The notes below the pieces were generated by a model, which was given only the letters and a program-made list of their open reading frames with translations, searched no databases and was not told the DNA's origin. Positions 3,735-23,272 of a stretch of DNA of 23,670 nucleotides are shown here, in pieces (position 1 is the stretch's first letter; each line of letters starts with the position of its first letter). The position numbers and the translations under genes are program-made. This DNA comes from a virus. The DNA is taken from IMG/VR virus record IMGVR_UViG_3300042878_000262, positions 1 to 23,670 of that record; one strand, 5' to 3'.

Positions 3735-4094
3735 ATGGCATACGACAAACAAAAGATATTTGAACAAGCAAAAGAAATGATAGTTAAACATAAACTATTT
3801 TTTATTGAGGATATTGTCGCTTTTTTACCTATTGCAAAGAAAACATTTTATGAGTATTTTCCTATTGAAGGTAACGAAAGTAACGAGCTAAAAGGATTGT
3901 TAGAAACAAACAGAATCGAATTAAAGGTTTCAATGCGTTCAAAGTGGTACAAATCGAACGCTCCAGCTTTACAGATGGCTTTGATGAAGTTAATAGCAAC
4001 ACCTGAAGAACTACGTAAACTATCAATGACACATACAGCAGTTGAGGAAGTAGAAAAACCAATATTCAAACAGCTTGATTTAGATGTTGATTAA
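3735..4094 (+). CDS. terS: Terminase small subunit
   Basis: 119 aa. The packaging subunit that recognises phage DNA and hands it to the large subunit. Seen: an N-terminal helical part with HKLFFIEDIVAFLPIAKKTFYEYFP at about residues 19-43, which reads as a helix-turn-helix ('FFIEDIVAFLPxSKxTFYExFP' recurs in Bacteroidota phage small subunits). Then NELKGLLETNRIELKVSMRSKWYKSNAP and ALQMALMKLIATPEE, the C-terminal helices usual for the family. The start ATG follows TAAAAAT. It overlaps terL by 11 nt, the standard arrangement. The preceding gap holds the tRNA-like element, whose DNA or RNA could be what this protein binds; that is inference only. Confidence 0.82.
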   Translation: MAYDKQKIFEQAKEMIVKHKLFFIEDIVAFLPIAKKTFYEYFPIEGNESNELKGLLETNRIELKVSMRSKWYKSNAPALQMALMKLIATPEELRKLSMTHTAVEEVEKPIFKQLDLDVD

Positions 4095-5247
4095 GACAAC
4101 AGCACAAACAAAGATAGCAAAGCTAAAAAAAAGACTAAGGATTGTACAGGGTGGAACATCAAGTTCAAAAACCTTTACAATCCTCCCTTTTTTAATTCAA
4201 TACGCATTACAGCATCCGAAGTCAGAGATATCCGTTGTATCAGAAAGTATTCCACATTTAAAGCGTGGTGCATTAAAAGACTTCCTTAAAATAATGGATT
4301 GGACGGGTAATCTAAACCATAACAATTTCAACAAATCTAATCTTACTTATAAGTTCACAAACGGCAGTTATATTGAGTTCTTTAGTGCTGACCAACCCGA
4401 CAAATTAAGAGGTGCAAGGCGTGATATTTTATTTATAAATGAGTGTAATAATGTAGCGTTTGAATCATACCAACAATTAGCAATACGTACAAAGAAATTT
4501 ATTTATTTAGATTACAATCCTACAAATGAATTTTGGGTTCATACTGAATTAATCGGTTCGGAGATAGCAGATTTCACGATATTAACTTATAAAGACAATG
4601 AAGCCCTAGATAATGCAATCGTAAAAGAGATTGAAAGAGCAAAAGAAAAGGCTAAGACGTCCACGTATTGGGAAAATTGGTGGAACGTTTATGGGTTAGG
4701 GCAAATAGGAAGTTTAGAGGGTGTTATTTTCAACAATTGGAAAACAATAGATACTATTCCAGACGATGCAAGGTTGCTTGGTTATGGTGTCGATTTTGGT
4801 TACACGAATGACCCGACAGCAATAGTTGAAATATACAAATGGAACGAGCATAGAATAATTAATGAGATATGCTACAACAAAGGTTTAAGCAACTCACAGA
4901 TTGCAAAGTATATCAACACTAAGCTACCTTGTTATTGTGATAGTGCAGAACCTAAATCAATAGCAGAATTAAGAATGTACGGAGTGAATGCTCATGCAGT
5001 AACTAAGGGTGCTGATAGTATTAACTTTGGTATACAAATAATGCAAGAAGAAAGTTATCTGGTATCAACTAAATCACTAAATTTGATAAATGAACTTCGC
5101 AAGTATGCGTGGGATAAAGATAAGAAAACAGGCGCTAAACTAAACAAGCCGATTGACTCATGGAACCACGGAATTGACAGCGTACGTTATCACGAAATGG
5201 AAACAATAGGTTTAAAAAGAAATAAGGGTATATATGGAATCAGGTAA
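4084..5247 (+). CDS. terL: Terminase large subunit (PBSX-like ATPase/nuclease)
   Basis: 387 aa. The motor that pumps DNA into the prohead and cuts it. ATPase domain: Walker A GGTSSSKT at residues 23-30, Walker B ILFINE at 115-120 with Glu120 as probable catalytic base, and a coupling motif LDYNPT at 142-147. RNase H-like nuclease domain: GVDFGYTNDPTA at 235-246 (Asp237), CDSAEP at 285-290 (Asp286) and NHGIDSVRYH at 361-370 (Asp365) give the three metal-binding acidic residues. The length is on the short side but both domains are complete. It overlaps terS by 11 nt and the next small gene by 14 nt. Unusually, the portal gene is not next; it lies about 14 kb downstream. Confidence 0.95.
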   Translation: MLIKTTAQTKIAKLKKRLRIVQGGTSSSKTFTILPFLIQYALQHPKSEISVVSESIPHLKRGALKDFLKIMDWTGNLNHNNFNKSNLTYKFTNGSYIEFFSADQPDKLRGARRDILFINECNNVAFESYQQLAIRTKKFIYLDYNPTNEFWVHTELIGSEIADFTILTYKDNEALDNAIVKEIERAKEKAKTSTYWENWWNVYGLGQIGSLEGVIFNNWKTIDTIPDDARLLGYGVDFGYTNDPTAIVEIYKWNEHRIINEICYNKGLSNSQIAKYINTKLPCYCDSAEPKSIAELRMYGVNAHAVTKGADSINFGIQIMQEESYLVSTKSLNLINELRKYAWDKDKKTGAKLNKPIDSWNHGIDSVRYHEMETIGLKRNKGIYGIR

Positions 5248-5425: not shown

Positions 5426-5625
5426 AGACAGCAGTACAATGGTTACTAAATGAATGGCCATCACTTGAAACAACTTTACCAAATTCTTTAATTGTGAAAG
5501 TTTTAGAAATGGAAAAGCAACAACTAAATGATGCGTATAATGCTGACAGACCTAACTTAACATGTTATGAAGAAAACACAGCATTCAAGGAATACTACAA
5601 CGAAACATTTAACAATGAAGATTGA
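5422..5625 (+). CDS. Small conserved phage protein (67 aa)
   Basis: Starts at the ATGA overlap with the preceding gene. The sequence TAVQWLLNEWP...LIVKVLEMEKQQLNDAYNAD is of a kind seen repeatedly as a short ORF in Bacteroidota phages and their hosts ('TAVEWLxxxL......AlEMEKxQIxxAY'); no function is assigned to it. The C-terminal part (ENTAFKEYYNETFNNED) is acidic. It overlaps the tail-chaperone start by 11 nt. Confidence 0.6.
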   Translation: MKTAVQWLLNEWPSLETTLPNSLIVKVLEMEKQQLNDAYNADRPNLTCYEENTAFKEYYNETFNNED

Positions 5626-6292
5626 AATTGAAATACCTTCCAACCTATCTGAGATTAGTTTAGATAGGTATCAAAAGTACATGCTTACTCTTAATAATTC
5701 AGACGACAAAGAGTTTGTGTTTCAAAAGATGATTGAAATCTTTTGTGGGTTAGAACTTAAAGAAGTTGTTAAAATGAAAGCATCGACCGTTATCGATTTG
5801 GTGCAACACTTTAATAAAATCTTCAACGAGAAAACAGCATTCAAACATAGATTCAAATTGAATGGTGTTGAGTTTGGTTTTATTCCTGATCTTGAAGAAA
5901 TATCCTGGGGTGAGTATATCGACATTGAAGCTAACATCGGAGACTTTCAAAACATCCACAAAGCACTTGCAGTAATGTATAGACCAATCGTAAAGGACGT
6001 TAAGGGCAAATATGAAATAGAACCTTACAAAGGTGATTTAAGCTACTCAGAGGCTCTTAAATATGCACCGTTGGACGTTGTGCTACCAGCTTCGGTTTTT
6101 TTTTGGACTTTAGGAATCGAATTAATAAGCAGTACGCTGTCCTCTTTGGAGCAGATGAAGAACAAAACCCATATTCAGAGAATGTTCAGTTCAGCAAACA
6201 ATGGGGATGGTATAGCTCAATCTATCACGTTGCTCAGGGAGACATTAGAAGATTTGACGAAGTTACAGCGCTGGGACTTCATCAATGTTTGA
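5615..6292 (+). CDS. Tail assembly chaperone, short (frame 0) form
   Basis: 225 aa. The start is placed at ATG 5615 (product MKIEIEIPSNLSEISLDRYQKY) rather than the in-frame ATG at 5567. The 5615 start gives only an 11-nt overlap, and the extra 16 residues from 5567 are low-complexity shadow of the upstream gene. The pattern 'LxRYQKYM...FxQKMIEIFCGxxLxxVxKMK......GVEFGFIPDLEEIxxGEYIDxExxIGDxQNxHKAxAVxYRPI' is one I associate with conserved proteins in the tail region of Bacteroidota phages. The frame-0 C-terminus (SANNGDGIAQSITLLRETLEDLTKLQ) also looks like real protein. A perfect slippery heptamer inside the gene opens a second product, as in the G/GT tail chaperones of lambda-like phages. 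Assignment as the chaperone rests on that arrangement and on being upstream of the tape measure gene, though four structural genes lie between. Confidence 0.65.
   Translation: MKIEIEIPSNLSEISLDRYQKYMLTLNNSDDKEFVFQKMIEIFCGLELKEVVKMKASTVIDLVQHFNKIFNEKTAFKHRFKLNGVEFGFIPDLEEISWGEYIDIEANIGDFQNIHKALAVMYRPIVKDVKGKYEIEPYKGDLSYSEALKYAPLDVVLPASVFFWTLGIELISSTLSSLEQMKNKTHIQRMFSSANNGDGIAQSITLLRETLEDLTKLQRWDFINV
6097..6103 (+). other. -1 ribosomal frameshift site T_TTT_TTT
   Basis: Nine consecutive T at 6096-6104 contain the heptamer T TTT TTT in phase with frame 0 (codons TTT 6098-6100 and TTT 6101-6103). A -1 slip leads straight into TTG GAC TTT AGG, the frame that stays open to 6369. This is the X_XXY_YYZ arrangement of known -1 sites. 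I could not evaluate a downstream pseudoknot. Confidence 0.7.
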
Positions 6293-6369
6293 CCTTTTTA
6301 ACCTTTGAACAACAAAAAGCTAAAATCGAAGTTAATCAATTAAAGAAGTCCCATGAAAAACTACTATAA
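6103..6369 (+). CDS. -1 frame extension of the tail chaperone (GT-like)
   Basis: An 88-codon reading frame that is open from 6061 and contains no ATG at all and no GTG at its head, so it is best read as made by frameshifting from the gene at 5615. The fusion would be residues 1-163 of the frame-0 protein plus these 88, about 251 aa. It has strong protein character: NKQYAVLFGADEEQNPYSEN, FSKQWGWYSSIYHVAQGDI, then ALGLHQCLTFLTFEQQKAKIE. WGWYxSxYxxAxGDI is familiar to me from Bacteroidota phage proteins at this locus. By analogy to lambda gpGT the extension would bind the tail tube protein while the common part coats the tape measure protein. It overlaps the following gene by 17 nt. The alternative is initiation at TTG 6103 by itself. 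Confidence 0.62.
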   Translation: MDFRNRINKQYAVLFGADEEQNPYSENVQFSKQWGWYSSIYHVAQGDIRRFDEVTALGLHQCLTFLTFEQQKAKIEVNQLKKSHEKLL

Positions 6370-6811
6370 CCTATCTACTTTATTACATGATTCAATACTT
6401 GCAGACCCTTTAGTGAATAGAGTTACTAAGGGAAGTTTGGATAAAATCACAAATGCTAAGCAAGACATGTATCCATTGTGCCACATTATATTTAACGATG
6501 TAGCATTTAGAGGTAATACAACGGTGTATAATATATCTTTGGTTATGATGTCGATAGTTGACATAAGCAAAGATGATGTTACGGATATATTCAAGGGCAA
6601 TGACAACGAAGATGATGTGTTAAATACAACGTTAAGTATACTAAATAGGATATTTGAGAGGGTTCGACGTGGTGATATTAGTAATTTAGGTTACGAGGTA
6701 TTGGACGACACGGCAAGTTGTGAGCCTTTTGTTGATAGGTTTACAGATGCGGTTGCTGGTTGGACAATGACTTTCGACATATTAGCACCTAACGAAATGA
6801 CTATATGTTAA
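6353..6811 (+). CDS. Conserved tail-completion/terminator-type virion protein
   Basis: 152 aa. The layout is typical of a widespread Bacteroidota phage protein: an N-terminal helix, then VNRVTKGSLDKITNAKQDMYPLCHII, a strand LVMMSIVDISKD, the segment IFKGNDNEDDVLNTTLSILNRIF, VRRGDIS, and a C-terminal CEPFVDRF...AGWTMTFDILAPNEMTIC. The size and the alternating helix/strand pattern resemble tail terminator or head-tail completion proteins, and it lies between the tail chaperone and a gp10-like gene, a usual place for them. The exact role is inference. The ATG at 6353 overlaps the frameshift extension by 17 nt; the end overlaps the next gene by 7 nt. Confidence 0.62.
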   Translation: MKNYYNLSTLLHDSILADPLVNRVTKGSLDKITNAKQDMYPLCHIIFNDVAFRGNTTVYNISLVMMSIVDISKDDVTDIFKGNDNEDDVLNTTLSILNRIFERVRRGDISNLGYEVLDDTASCEPFVDRFTDAVAGWTMTFDILAPNEMTIC

Positions 6812-10628: not shown

Positions 10629-10794
10629 CACAATTATACAACTATTGAAGTCGAATGACTTTTACGGACAAAGCGAGATTATCGATATCGCAAAAGGCAA
10701 ATATAAACTTACTAATTCCGTGCGCGAAAGCTACAAACAAGCTAAAAGAGAGTTATACTTAAAACAAGCTGAAAGATGGCAGAGAAAAAAATAA
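10621..10794 (+). CDS. Small helical protein between tail tip and tape measure (57 aa)
   Basis: ATG 10621 overlaps the end of the 740-aa gene by 8 nt and the TAA at 10792-10794 lies 19 nt inside the tape measure gene. The product begins MLNTIIQLLKSNDFYGQSEI and continues with KGKYKLTNSVRESYKQAKRELYLKQAERWQRKK, a basic helical tail. Without it a 147-nt gap would remain in an otherwise gapless operon, which favours a real gene. Function unknown; it could be a tail-tip or tape-measure accessory protein. Confidence 0.6.
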   Translation: MLNTIIQLLKSNDFYGQSEIIDIAKGKYKLTNSVRESYKQAKRELYLKQAERWQRKK

Positions 10795-12428
10795 TAGAGT
10801 TAGAGGTTAAAAACAATTTAGGTTCGCTTAAATCACAGCTTAGAGAGGCGCAAGCAGAAGTTGCAAAGTTATCGGAGCAGTTCGGTGCAACGTCACGAGA
10901 GGCAGCCAATGCAGCAAAGAAAGCAGCGGAATTAAAAGACCAAATCGAAGATGCGAAAGCGTTAACGGATGCCTTTAACCCAGATGCTAAATTCAAAGCT
11001 TTGTCTTCATCTTTGGGCGGTGTTGCTTCGGGGTTCGCTGCCTATCAAGGGGCTTTGGGCTTAGTAGGTGTTGAAAGTAAGAAGGTAGAAGAACAATTGC
11101 TTAAGGTTCAGAGCGCAATGGCTTTAGCTGAAGGACTGCAATCAATTGGAGAGGCTAAAGATTCATTTATTCAGTTAGGAGCAGTAATTAAAAACCAAGT
11201 TGTAGCTGCTTTTGCTACACTTAGAGGCGCGATAATAGCGACAGGTATAGGGTTAATAGTTACTGCTATTGCTGTTTTATTGCCTAAAATTATTGAGTGG
11301 GCTGATTGGACAGGTAGAGCGCAAAGGAAACAAGAAGATTTAAACGATAGTTTAGAAAGACAACAATCAAAAATACGTGAAAGTAGGAAAGAACTTGAAA
11401 GAGATTTAGATTTTCGTTTAAGGTATGCGAGAGCATTGGGTAAATCAGATGAGGAATTAGCTAAAATAAAAGAGGGTAACACTAAAAAAACAAATGCTAA
11501 TATTTATTCAGAGATTGAAGCCGCTCGAAAAAGATTAAAAGCATTACGTGAAGCTGATTTAGGCGTTATGGCTTCATCACGTGAAGAATATGAGGAACTT
11601 GTAAAAAACAATAGAAAAAAACGTGAGGCAATTGTTCAAGAAATAAAAGGACTGACTGATAATATTAAAAGAAACAATGAAGATTTATTAATTGAACAAA
11701 CTGAACAAAACAGAAAAGAAGTTGATGTTGTTGTTAAAGGGGCTAAAGAAAAAAAGGAAGCAAAAGAGCGTGAAAAACTTGATGAGATAAATACTTTAAA
11801 ACCTAAAACATCTGATGATATCATAAGTGAGGAACAAAGAAAAAAAGAAAAGCTAGCTAAAATAAATAAAGAAGCAAATGAGGAATATTTAAAAGACCTA
11901 AAGATAAGAGTAGAAAAAGAAGAGGCTATTGAAAGGCAAGCCAAAGAACAAAAAATAAGAATGGCTGGCGAAGCGTTTAGCGTTATTCAAGGTGTTGCTG
12001 ACTTATTCGCTCAAGGTAATGAAGCTGACCAAAAGAAAGCTTTTGAACTAAACAAAGCGGTTAACATTGGACAGGCAATTATGAACACTGCGCAAGGTGT
12101 GACAGCTGCTTTAAGTGGAGGTGGTAACCTTGGTAAAGTGGCAACAGGTTTGAACTTTGTTGAGGCTGGGTTAATAGGAACGATTGGAGCTTTAAACATT
12201 GCAAAGATAGCTAACACACAATTCCAAGGTGGTGGAGATAGTGGCGGAGGTGGTGCAACATCTACACCAACAGCACCACGTACACCGAGCTTTGATATTA
12301 TACAAGCGCAGCCACAAATGCAATTAGGAGCGTTACAACAACAACCTGTAAAAGCTTATGTAGTAAGTGGTGAAGTGTCAACAGCTCAAGCATTAGATAG
12401 GAATAGGGTAAGAAATGCAACATTTTAA
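10776..12428 (+). CDS. Tape measure protein (tail length determinant)
   Basis: 550 aa. Residues 1-65 form a heptad-rich helix (ELEVKNNLGSLKSQLREAQAEVAKL) typical of tape measure N-termini. About 78-175 is hydrophobic and Ala/Gly-rich (SLGGVASGFAAYQGALGLVG, then the membrane-like IIATGIGLIVTAIAVLLP). Residues 180-400 are long charged coiled coil (REKLDEINTLKPKTSDDIISE and neighbours), and the end is Gly-rich (GGGDSGGGGAT) with Gln repeats. By the usual 1.5 angstrom per residue this would set a tail of roughly 80 nm. No lysozyme or peptidase domain is seen. The start overlaps the 57-aa gene by 19 nt; a 21-nt gap follows, one of few in this operon. Confidence 0.82.
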   Translation: MAEKKIIELEVKNNLGSLKSQLREAQAEVAKLSEQFGATSREAANAAKKAAELKDQIEDAKALTDAFNPDAKFKALSSSLGGVASGFAAYQGALGLVGVESKKVEEQLLKVQSAMALAEGLQSIGEAKDSFIQLGAVIKNQVVAAFATLRGAIIATGIGLIVTAIAVLLPKIIEWADWTGRAQRKQEDLNDSLERQQSKIRESRKELERDLDFRLRYARALGKSDEELAKIKEGNTKKTNANIYSEIEAARKRLKALREADLGVMASSREEYEELVKNNRKKREAIVQEIKGLTDNIKRNNEDLLIEQTEQNRKEVDVVVKGAKEKKEAKEREKLDEINTLKPKTSDDIISEEQRKKEKLAKINKEANEEYLKDLKIRVEKEEAIERQAKEQKIRMAGEAFSVIQGVADLFAQGNEADQKKAFELNKAVNIGQAIMNTAQGVTAALSGGGNLGKVATGLNFVEAGLIGTIGALNIAKIANTQFQGGGDSGGGGATSTPTAPRTPSFDIIQAQPQMQLGALQQQPVKAYVVSGEVSTAQALDRNRVRNATF

Positions 12429-17565: not shown

Positions 17566-17595
17566 AAGGGAGGGTATATTCCCTCCTTTTTTTTT
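17566..17595 (+). terminator. Rho-independent terminator after the capsid gene
   Basis: GGAGGG (17569-17574), loop TATATT, CCCTCC (17581-17586), then nine T (17587-17595). The AAAG before the stem can pair with the first T residues and lengthen it. Strong by eye. No clear promoter is seen between this and the next gene, so the tail tube genes must rely on readthrough or an unseen promoter. Confidence 0.85.
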
Positions 17596-17607
17596 AAACT
17601 TTAAATT

Positions 17608-18150
17608 ATGGCTTGCAATTTAACAATAGGAAGAGCAGAAGCATGTAAGGAAGCAATTGGAGGTTTGAAGGCGGTGTACTTCATTAACTTTCAAATTGTA
17701 CCTTCAGACGTTACTTTCTCAAATGACTTAATCACTGCGGTGACAAACGTGGACAACTTGTACAAATATGAGTTGAAATCAAACGAAAATGTATTTGATC
17801 AAGAAATTGTATCGAGCCGTGAAGCTGGAACAACTTTCTTCAGACAAACGTTAACTATCAAATTGAAAAAACAAGATGCGACAACACATAAAGAAATTAA
17901 ACTTTTGGCTTACTCAAGACCACACGTGTTAGTAGAGAACAACAACGGGCAATTTTTCTTAATGGGCTTATTTAGAGGAGCTGATTTAACGGCGGGTAGT
18001 ATAAATAATGGCGGGGCGCTTTCAGATTTTTCGGGTTACAGCTTGACTTTTACCGCTGAGGAGGCTTTACCGGCACCTTTCACGGATATTACAAGCTCTA
18101 CAACTATCGTTTCTGATTGTTTCACGGGTGCAACGGTTGTAACTGCTTAG
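17608..18150 (+). CDS. Tail tube (major tail) type protein, copy 1
   Basis: 180 aa. Begins MACNLTIGRAEACKEAIGGL, then a beta-rich core: LYKYELKSNENVFDQEIVSS, REAGTTFFRQTLTIKLKKQD, RPHVLVENNNGQFFLMGLFR and GSINNGGALSDFSGYSLTFT, ending with a Thr-rich tail. The 'YELK...NFxxxxxxSxExGTxFxxQxlxIxLkK' and 'G.NxGxalxDxsGxxLTFxaxE' motifs are those of tail tube proteins in Bacteroidota phages, as far as I can recall. The position after capsid and its own terminator fits a highly expressed structural protein. It is duplicated immediately downstream. Confidence 0.68.
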   Translation: MACNLTIGRAEACKEAIGGLKAVYFINFQIVPSDVTFSNDLITAVTNVDNLYKYELKSNENVFDQEIVSSREAGTTFFRQTLTIKLKKQDATTHKEIKLLAYSRPHVLVENNNGQFFLMGLFRGADLTAGSINNGGALSDFSGYSLTFTAEEALPAPFTDITSSTTIVSDCFTGATVVTA

Positions 18151-18152
18151 TC

Positions 18153-18740
18153 ATGGCTTGCGCGATAACTTTAGGACGCATAGAGCCTTGTAAGGACAGC
18201 CTGGGAGGGTTACGCAATATTTACTTCATCAACGATGATTTAGTAACAGGTGAGGTTGTATTTTACGATCCTACGGTAGCACCTCCATTTGTTGACACTG
18301 ACGAGGTTTACTATGTTCAAAACGTAGCATCTATATACAAGTTTGAACTGAAATCAAACGAAAATGTTTATGACCAAGAGATAGTAAGCTCACGTGAAAA
18401 CGGTACTACTTTCTTTAGACAAACATTGACTATAAAACTAAAAAAACAGGACATTGCTACGCACAACGCCGTAAAAACTTTAGCGTATGCAAAACCACGA
18501 ATTTTAGTTGAAAACAACGAAGGGCAATTTTTCTTAGTTGGCATGTTTAGAGGCTGTGATTTGACGGCTGGATCTATTAATAATGGCGGTGCTTTGGGTG
18601 ATTTTAGCGGTTATTCCATGACCTTCCAAGCGGAAGAGCTAGTTCCGTCACCATTTGTAATGAATGGTACTGATACTTTCAGAGTAGGTCAAGCGCTTAC
18701 ACTTCCACTATCAGCAGTAAGTACAATAGTTACAAGTTAA
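18153..18740 (+). CDS. Tail tube (major tail) type protein, copy 2
   Basis: 195 aa. The start is placed at ATG 18153 (MACAITLGRIEPCKDSLGGL), which aligns with the first copy's start; the in-frame ATG at 18117 would add 12 residues from the tail of the previous gene. About three quarters of the residues in a roughly 108-residue core are identical to copy 1 by eye, from IYKFELKSNENVYDQEIVSS to FSGYSMTFQAEE. It has a longer loop near 25-45 (TGEVVFYDPTVAPPFVDTDE) and a different C-terminal tail. Two bases separate the genes. Two close paralogues may form a mixed tube, or one may serve as tail tip adaptor; which one is incorporated is unknown. Confidence 0.66.
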   Translation: MACAITLGRIEPCKDSLGGLRNIYFINDDLVTGEVVFYDPTVAPPFVDTDEVYYVQNVASIYKFELKSNENVYDQEIVSSRENGTTFFRQTLTIKLKKQDIATHNAVKTLAYAKPRILVENNEGQFFLVGMFRGCDLTAGSINNGGALGDFSGYSMTFQAEELVPSPFVMNGTDTFRVGQALTLPLSAVSTIVTS

Positions 18741-18746
18741 TTTTAC

Positions 18747-18775
18747 GGAGGGGTTTAATAGCCCCTCTTTTTTTT
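18747..18775 (+). terminator. Rho-independent terminator after tail tube genes
   Basis: GAGGGG (18748-18753), 8-nt loop, CCCCTC (18762-18767), then eight T (18768-18775). With the terminator at 17566-17595 it brackets the two tail tube genes as a separate transcription unit or a graded readthrough unit. Confidence 0.82.
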
Positions 18776-23242: not shown

Positions 23243-23272
23243 AGCGGTTTAGAAATAAATCGCTTTTTTTTT
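23243..23272 (+). terminator. Strong Rho-independent terminator of the late operon
   Basis: AGCGGTTTA (23243-23251), GAAA tetraloop (23252-23255), TAAATCGCT (23256-23264): nine pairs including one G-T, followed by a run of T to 23272. The clearest hairpin in the window. A TATATTTA motif at 23222-23229 sits just upstream of it. Confidence 0.92.

Follow-up and report, generated by a model that had tools for sequence, protein, structure and literature searches.

Analysis of the window, a virus record of 23,670 bases from a phage related to Bacteroidota phages, revealed a gene read in two frames around a run of nine T's. Comparison of homologous sites suggests that the shift between the frames is produced mostly by slippage of RNA polymerase (programmed transcriptional slippage), a reading to which we give a probability of about two in three. 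As judged from the aligned sites, the conserved feature is an uninterrupted run of at least nine T's in any phase, not a heptamer, and the run slides.

The slip gene with its run and both frames, the gene that follows it, the large terminase and the tape-measure-like ORF are on the plus strand. The frame-0 gene (5615..6292) encodes a G-like protein of 225 aa that matches the phrog_32199 family (E 4.5e-12). Its likeliest start is the ATG at 5615 (MKIEIEIPSNL), and an ATG is found at or near the matching place in 322 of the 327 listed sites with a complete ORF. The T9 slippage run occupies 6096..6104, is read in frame 0 as GTT TTT TTT TGG and consists of 9 to 11 T's, in any phase, in the homologues. 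The original prediction of a nine-T run in phase with a T_TTT_TTT heptamer at 6097..6103, followed by an 88-codon -1 frame without an ATG of its own, proved correct in its coordinates: the heptamer lies inside the run, and the -1 frame (6103..6369), which carries a W-G-W-Y motif, is open from TTG at 6103 to TAA at 6367-6369. Both frames are under purifying selection in the dual-coded stretch of about 190 nt at 6105..6292. The next gene (6353..6811, phrog_30964) starts at an ATG that falls within the final part of the -1 frame, and among the matches listed an ATG lies within -20 to +6 of the -1 stop at 419 of 424 sites; slipped messages may provide translational coupling of this gene. The slip site is the sole genic run of seven or more T's in the window. 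Other T runs (T9 at 17587, T8 at 18768 and T9 at 23264) lie between listed ORFs and are terminator-like by position.

Homologous sites were taken from IMG/VR contigs and from Nonlabens phages. The first scan for relatives provided the best 80 of 121 matches, and the later profile scans (five with patterns upstream of the run, one with patterns on both sides and one with the T domain) each provided the best 80 of about 570 to 600 matches, so that the family was sampled and not exhausted. In the both-sides scan one pattern touched the Phe codons of the run, in degenerate form. At least 625 records were obtained; eight without a G or T match were dropped, 617 had both domains, and removal of 177 of these with an identical 120-nt site left 440 non-identical sites, 279 of them from scans whose patterns sit upstream of the run. 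These 440 sites are related to one another, and counts over them are not counts of independent events.

The second frame encodes, on sequence evidence, a real protein domain, as indicated by selection, by its 440 homologous sites and by a relative in which it is fused in frame. Selection was analyzed in both frames on a set of 172 sequences; nine without complete frames were excluded, and the remaining 163 supplied 66 independent nearest-neighbour pairs. Protein-altering changes are strongly suppressed in the -1 frame (dNN/dNS 0.24, 0.19-0.30), corroborating the protein character that had been assigned to it from its residues, while the frame-0 tail shows moderate constraint only (dNN/dSN 0.65, 95% 0.53-0.78); the control, the silent -1 frame of the upstream part, gave 1.63, and the doubly silent class of the test is small (54 sites). 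The frame-0 tail extends 27 to 92 codons from the start of the run (median 64) and the -1 part 83 to 95 codons in 327 listed sites, so that the greater part of the T domain is encoded in both frames. AlphaFold predicted an all-helical T domain with a mean pLDDT of 89.7, and a frame-0 protein with a mean of 83.5 in which the tail after the run scores about 50.

The two frames could alternatively be two separate genes, the second using an internal start or coupling, or could result from a DNA-level indel or a sequencing error, explanations that we regard as extremely improbable. The Nonlabens phage protein P12024S_39 is indeed annotated as a gene of its own with an ATG at L081:6528, but the N-terminal motif of the domain (FR.R...L) lies upstream of that ATG, and of 424 complete listed -1 frames 421 have no ATG in their first 32 codons past the slip; a second gene with its own ATG, which the original prediction had named as a contrary outcome, is thus not what the homologues display. 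Its proposed comparison of split and fused homologues found the frames split at the 440 listed sites and fused in one genome (L632), as a single frame of 245 aa that lacks a T run and matches the T domain in part (E 1e-4). Selection on both frames and this fused relative also speak against two genes or an indel. At the level of model matches, several BFVD proteins with lengths of 240-268 aa fit both the G and the T models, and together with L632 they indicate that the T domain occurs fused as well as split. A sequencing error or a phase-variable DNA run was considered and rejected: there are no length alleles, and the T domain is in frame 0 in none of the 440 listed sites.

The run itself is conserved without exception, far more than chance would allow. 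In 81 of 81 close records (the best 80 of 121 loci plus the window) T9 is present in this phase and is followed by a homologous -1 frame that is open, and in the 440 listed non-identical sites the run before the -1 domain is 9 (365 sites), 10 (74) or 11 (1) T's long, with no run below nine. The phases 0, 1 and 2 are represented by 24, 408 and 8 of these sites and the shift is always -1. Phase-0 T9 sites read TTT TTT TTT CTG; phase-1 T9 sites have GTT, CTT or a similar codon, TTT TTT and then TGG or TAY; and phase-2 T9 sites read GAT, AGT or TAT, TTT TTT, and TTG or TTA. Loss of the T on the 3' side (CTG) goes together with TTT as the 5' codon, and loss of T's on the 5' side (GAT, AGT, TAT) with TTG, TTA or TTT as the 3' codon. 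Parsimony on a tree of 140 representatives gave 14 changes of run length or phase, of which 10 were changes of phase and none went below nine. When the 3' flanks of 152 representatives were shuffled 20,000 times, with phylogeny ignored, no trial left all runs at nine or more. Constraint on the protein accounts for part of the flanking T's, with a hydrophobic residue before the run and an aromatic one after it. In 51 close sequences, synonymous variation dips 11-20 codons upstream of the run (about 6035-6064 in the window; 0.200 vs 0.27-0.49), a stretch that is possibly a cis element.

Classical -1 ribosomal frameshifting at T_TTT_TTT, by tandem slippage of tRNA-Phe as in lambda G/GT, is in our opinion a distinctly less probable explanation, and several observations speak for it. 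The heptamer is in frame in all 440 listed sites, passages of PMC4066793 place U_UUU_UUY with the more efficient E. coli motifs, and tail-chaperone frameshifts of 6-7% were measured in an HK97-like cluster, as given in an extract of PMC3711429. An in-frame T_TTT_TTT is, however, automatic in any run of at least nine T's, so that ribosomal slipping there may add to the yield. Under the ribosomal explanation an in-phase T7 or T8 would suffice, yet neither was found in the 440 listed sites. T_TTT_TTC would work as well, yet in the 366 listed sites where a change from T to C would alter neither protein the last base of the heptamer is never C, whereas comparable doubly silent positions within these overlaps have C in 286 of 948 cases (30%). 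Stimulators, which are not obligatory, were not detected in 89 representatives: there was no downstream structure (mean z -0.09, with pseudoknots outside the test), and Shine-Dalgarno-like sequences upstream showed no excess (10 of 89 vs 16% in the control).

Genes of the same phages avoid such runs elsewhere. At the 440 listed loci, coding runs of at least nine T's outside the site were observed 4 times against about 42 in synonymous shuffles, approximately a tenfold avoidance, and T7 is avoided equally with an in-frame heptamer (0.40) or without one (0.35 and 0.41) in the same phages. Coding A runs at these loci are at 0.62-0.86 of expectation up to a length of 8 and at 0.13 at 9, a sharp threshold. 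Baranov et al. (2005) took it as a mark of transcriptional slippage when genes avoid A/T runs in a length-dependent way (PMC1088944, in part); replication slippage could be an alternative cause of the avoidance of T runs. The same source, in the portion consulted, takes a conserved 9A or 9T run together with a conserved ORF layout as the criterion for slippage, and here a conserved run of at least nine in the same ORF layout is found in non-identical homologues. Bacterial slippage is reported on runs of 9 A or T (extract of PMC5009743), and the RNA polymerase of E. coli prefers poly(T) for slippage and needs at least 7 (extract of PMC6260861). Since the E. coli enzyme slips measurably on T7 according to the same extract, a floor of nine needs an extra reason, for example yield.

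Polymerase slippage is ranked first because run length is kept in any phase, T_TTT_TTC is absent, stimulators were not detected and T runs of nine or more are avoided in genes. As regards the programmed -1 frameshift of the original prediction, a programmed entry into the -1 frame that yields a G-T-like fusion was upheld, but a ribosomal mechanism agrees poorly with a constraint on length and not on phase. A combination, with the polymerase giving most of the yield and ribosomes acting on U9-U10, or a ribosomal slip that needs a longer U run, appears improbable to us: the T run satisfies both mechanisms, but the phase decides on which side of the heptamer the extra T's fall, and we know of no ribosomal requirement for nine U's. 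The junction peptide V-F-F-L-D is identical under both mechanisms and therefore cannot tell them apart.

With polymerase slippage, one start would give two products, the short G-like protein by plain reading and a G-T fusion from a minority of messages. RNA polymerase would slip on T9, where the rU:dA hybrid is weak, and add one U to a fraction of the transcripts, whose ordinary translation would continue through V-F-F-L-D into the T domain. In the fusion the last 62 frame-0 residues would be exchanged for the 88-residue helical -1 domain. How much fusion is made relative to the short protein would then depend on the proportion of slipped to unslipped messages, a balance that in lambda gpG/gpGT is set by the ribosomal shift.

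Phages P12024S and P12024L of Nonlabens carry a homologous G-like protein with 23-27% identity (P12024S_38/_39 and P12024L_40/_41). They resemble the window in having T9 in the same phase, a -1 T domain that shares the FR.R and W.WY motifs, and a terminase upstream; they differ in that the pair is annotated as two hypothetical proteins and that the frame-0 tail extends just 28 codons from the run codon. In bacterial genome records T9 was present in five of five distinct split copies (L471, which is the same as L626, L627, L628, L629 and L631), including L629, where it is in phase 2, and the very remote L631 (G profile E 0.005). The scan of genome contigs gave one matching contig, labelled as a Winogradskyella MAG, and matches were found in 3 of 397 genomes of its family, 3 of 395 of its order and 1 of 395 of its phylum. 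When the T domain was compared by blast with the phage collection, one search had no match and another matched Nonlabens only (E 0.3). The profiles gave no usable G or T match in Flavobacterium phage 6H, which had come up as a weak fold match.

A G/GT-like role of the pair in tail assembly is suggested by the short/long architecture, the tail-gene context, a tape-measure-like ORF downstream and a weak fold match. This match, in BFVD, is a 'Tail assembly chaperone protein' at rank 46 (E 0.059, prob 0.92). No Pfam family was above the cut-off for either protein (one row for the T domain, E 0.016, was below it), NCBIfam gave no match for either, and PDB gave neither a sequence match nor a strong fold match for the two. 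A G/GT pair usually lies directly upstream of the tape measure gene. Here the large terminase adjoins upstream (4084..5247; TIGR01547, E 2.9e-28, 99.4 bits, slightly below the curated cut-off of 105.05), and four ORFs (6353, 6805, 7380 and 8406) separate the slip gene from the tape-measure-like ORF (10776..12428; phrog_3336, E 1.4e-8). The four intervening genes had been predicted as such; for the proposed G/GT pair of a tail cluster, the tail-gene setting and the architecture are in agreement, but the usual order directly before the tape measure is not.

Two other regions of the window were recorded. Two adjacent ORFs at 17608-18740 encode clearly similar proteins, a tandem duplication, which are tail-tube-like by eye and share the motifs ELKSNEN, EIVSSRE.GTTFFRQTLTIKLKKQD and GAL.DFSGY, with a capsid-like ORF upstream and a portal ORF downstream. 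The ORF at 1509-1991 is sigma-70-like by eye, and in the Nonlabens phages a gene annotated as sigma-70 region 2 is located in the same stretch, ahead of the terminase.

Lambda gpG/gpGT is alike in its shared N-terminus, in a longer product reached through the -1 frame and in its tail-gene context. The pair probably works like G/GT, the likeness being one of architecture; no annotated chaperone is matched at the level of sequence families, and at the level of fold the match is weak. The pair differs further in that about 62 codons of tail under selection are retained in its short form, which makes about 190 nt dual-coded, and in that its shift is probably transcriptional. In lambda the shift is ribosomal, with a ratio of 30:1 (extract of PMC5009743), and the mean distance from slip site to stop in the PRFect phage set is 26 nt (extract of PMC10885494). 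Shigella mxiE/spa13, IS elements with 9 A and Thermus dnaX also have a conserved run of about nine A or T that joins or leaves a frame, with runs avoided elsewhere; mxiE is a T9 case. These are secretion, transposase or replication genes, and the excerpts of the literature searched contained no phage tail chaperone among such systems. Searches of open-licence literature (tail-chaperone frameshift; slippage in tail, phage or Flavobacteria), as far as its accessible text goes, found neither this family nor slippage in a tail chaperone.

Tail chaperone frameshifting is textbook ribosomal recoding. On balance we favor the view that in a Bacteroidota phage lineage polymerase slippage on a sliding, never-shortening run of at least nine T's sets the ratio of two tail-chaperone forms, with two selected C-termini within 190-270 nt, and that the G/GT trick has moved from the ribosome to the polymerase. 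The deposition of these genes as two hypothetical proteins would thereby be explained, and annotation tools that search for heptamers only would be given a warning. If this view is true, the length thresholds of slippage in Bacteroidota would be testable on one conserved site, and what evolution fixes would be the ratio of the two proteins and not the ribosomal mechanism.
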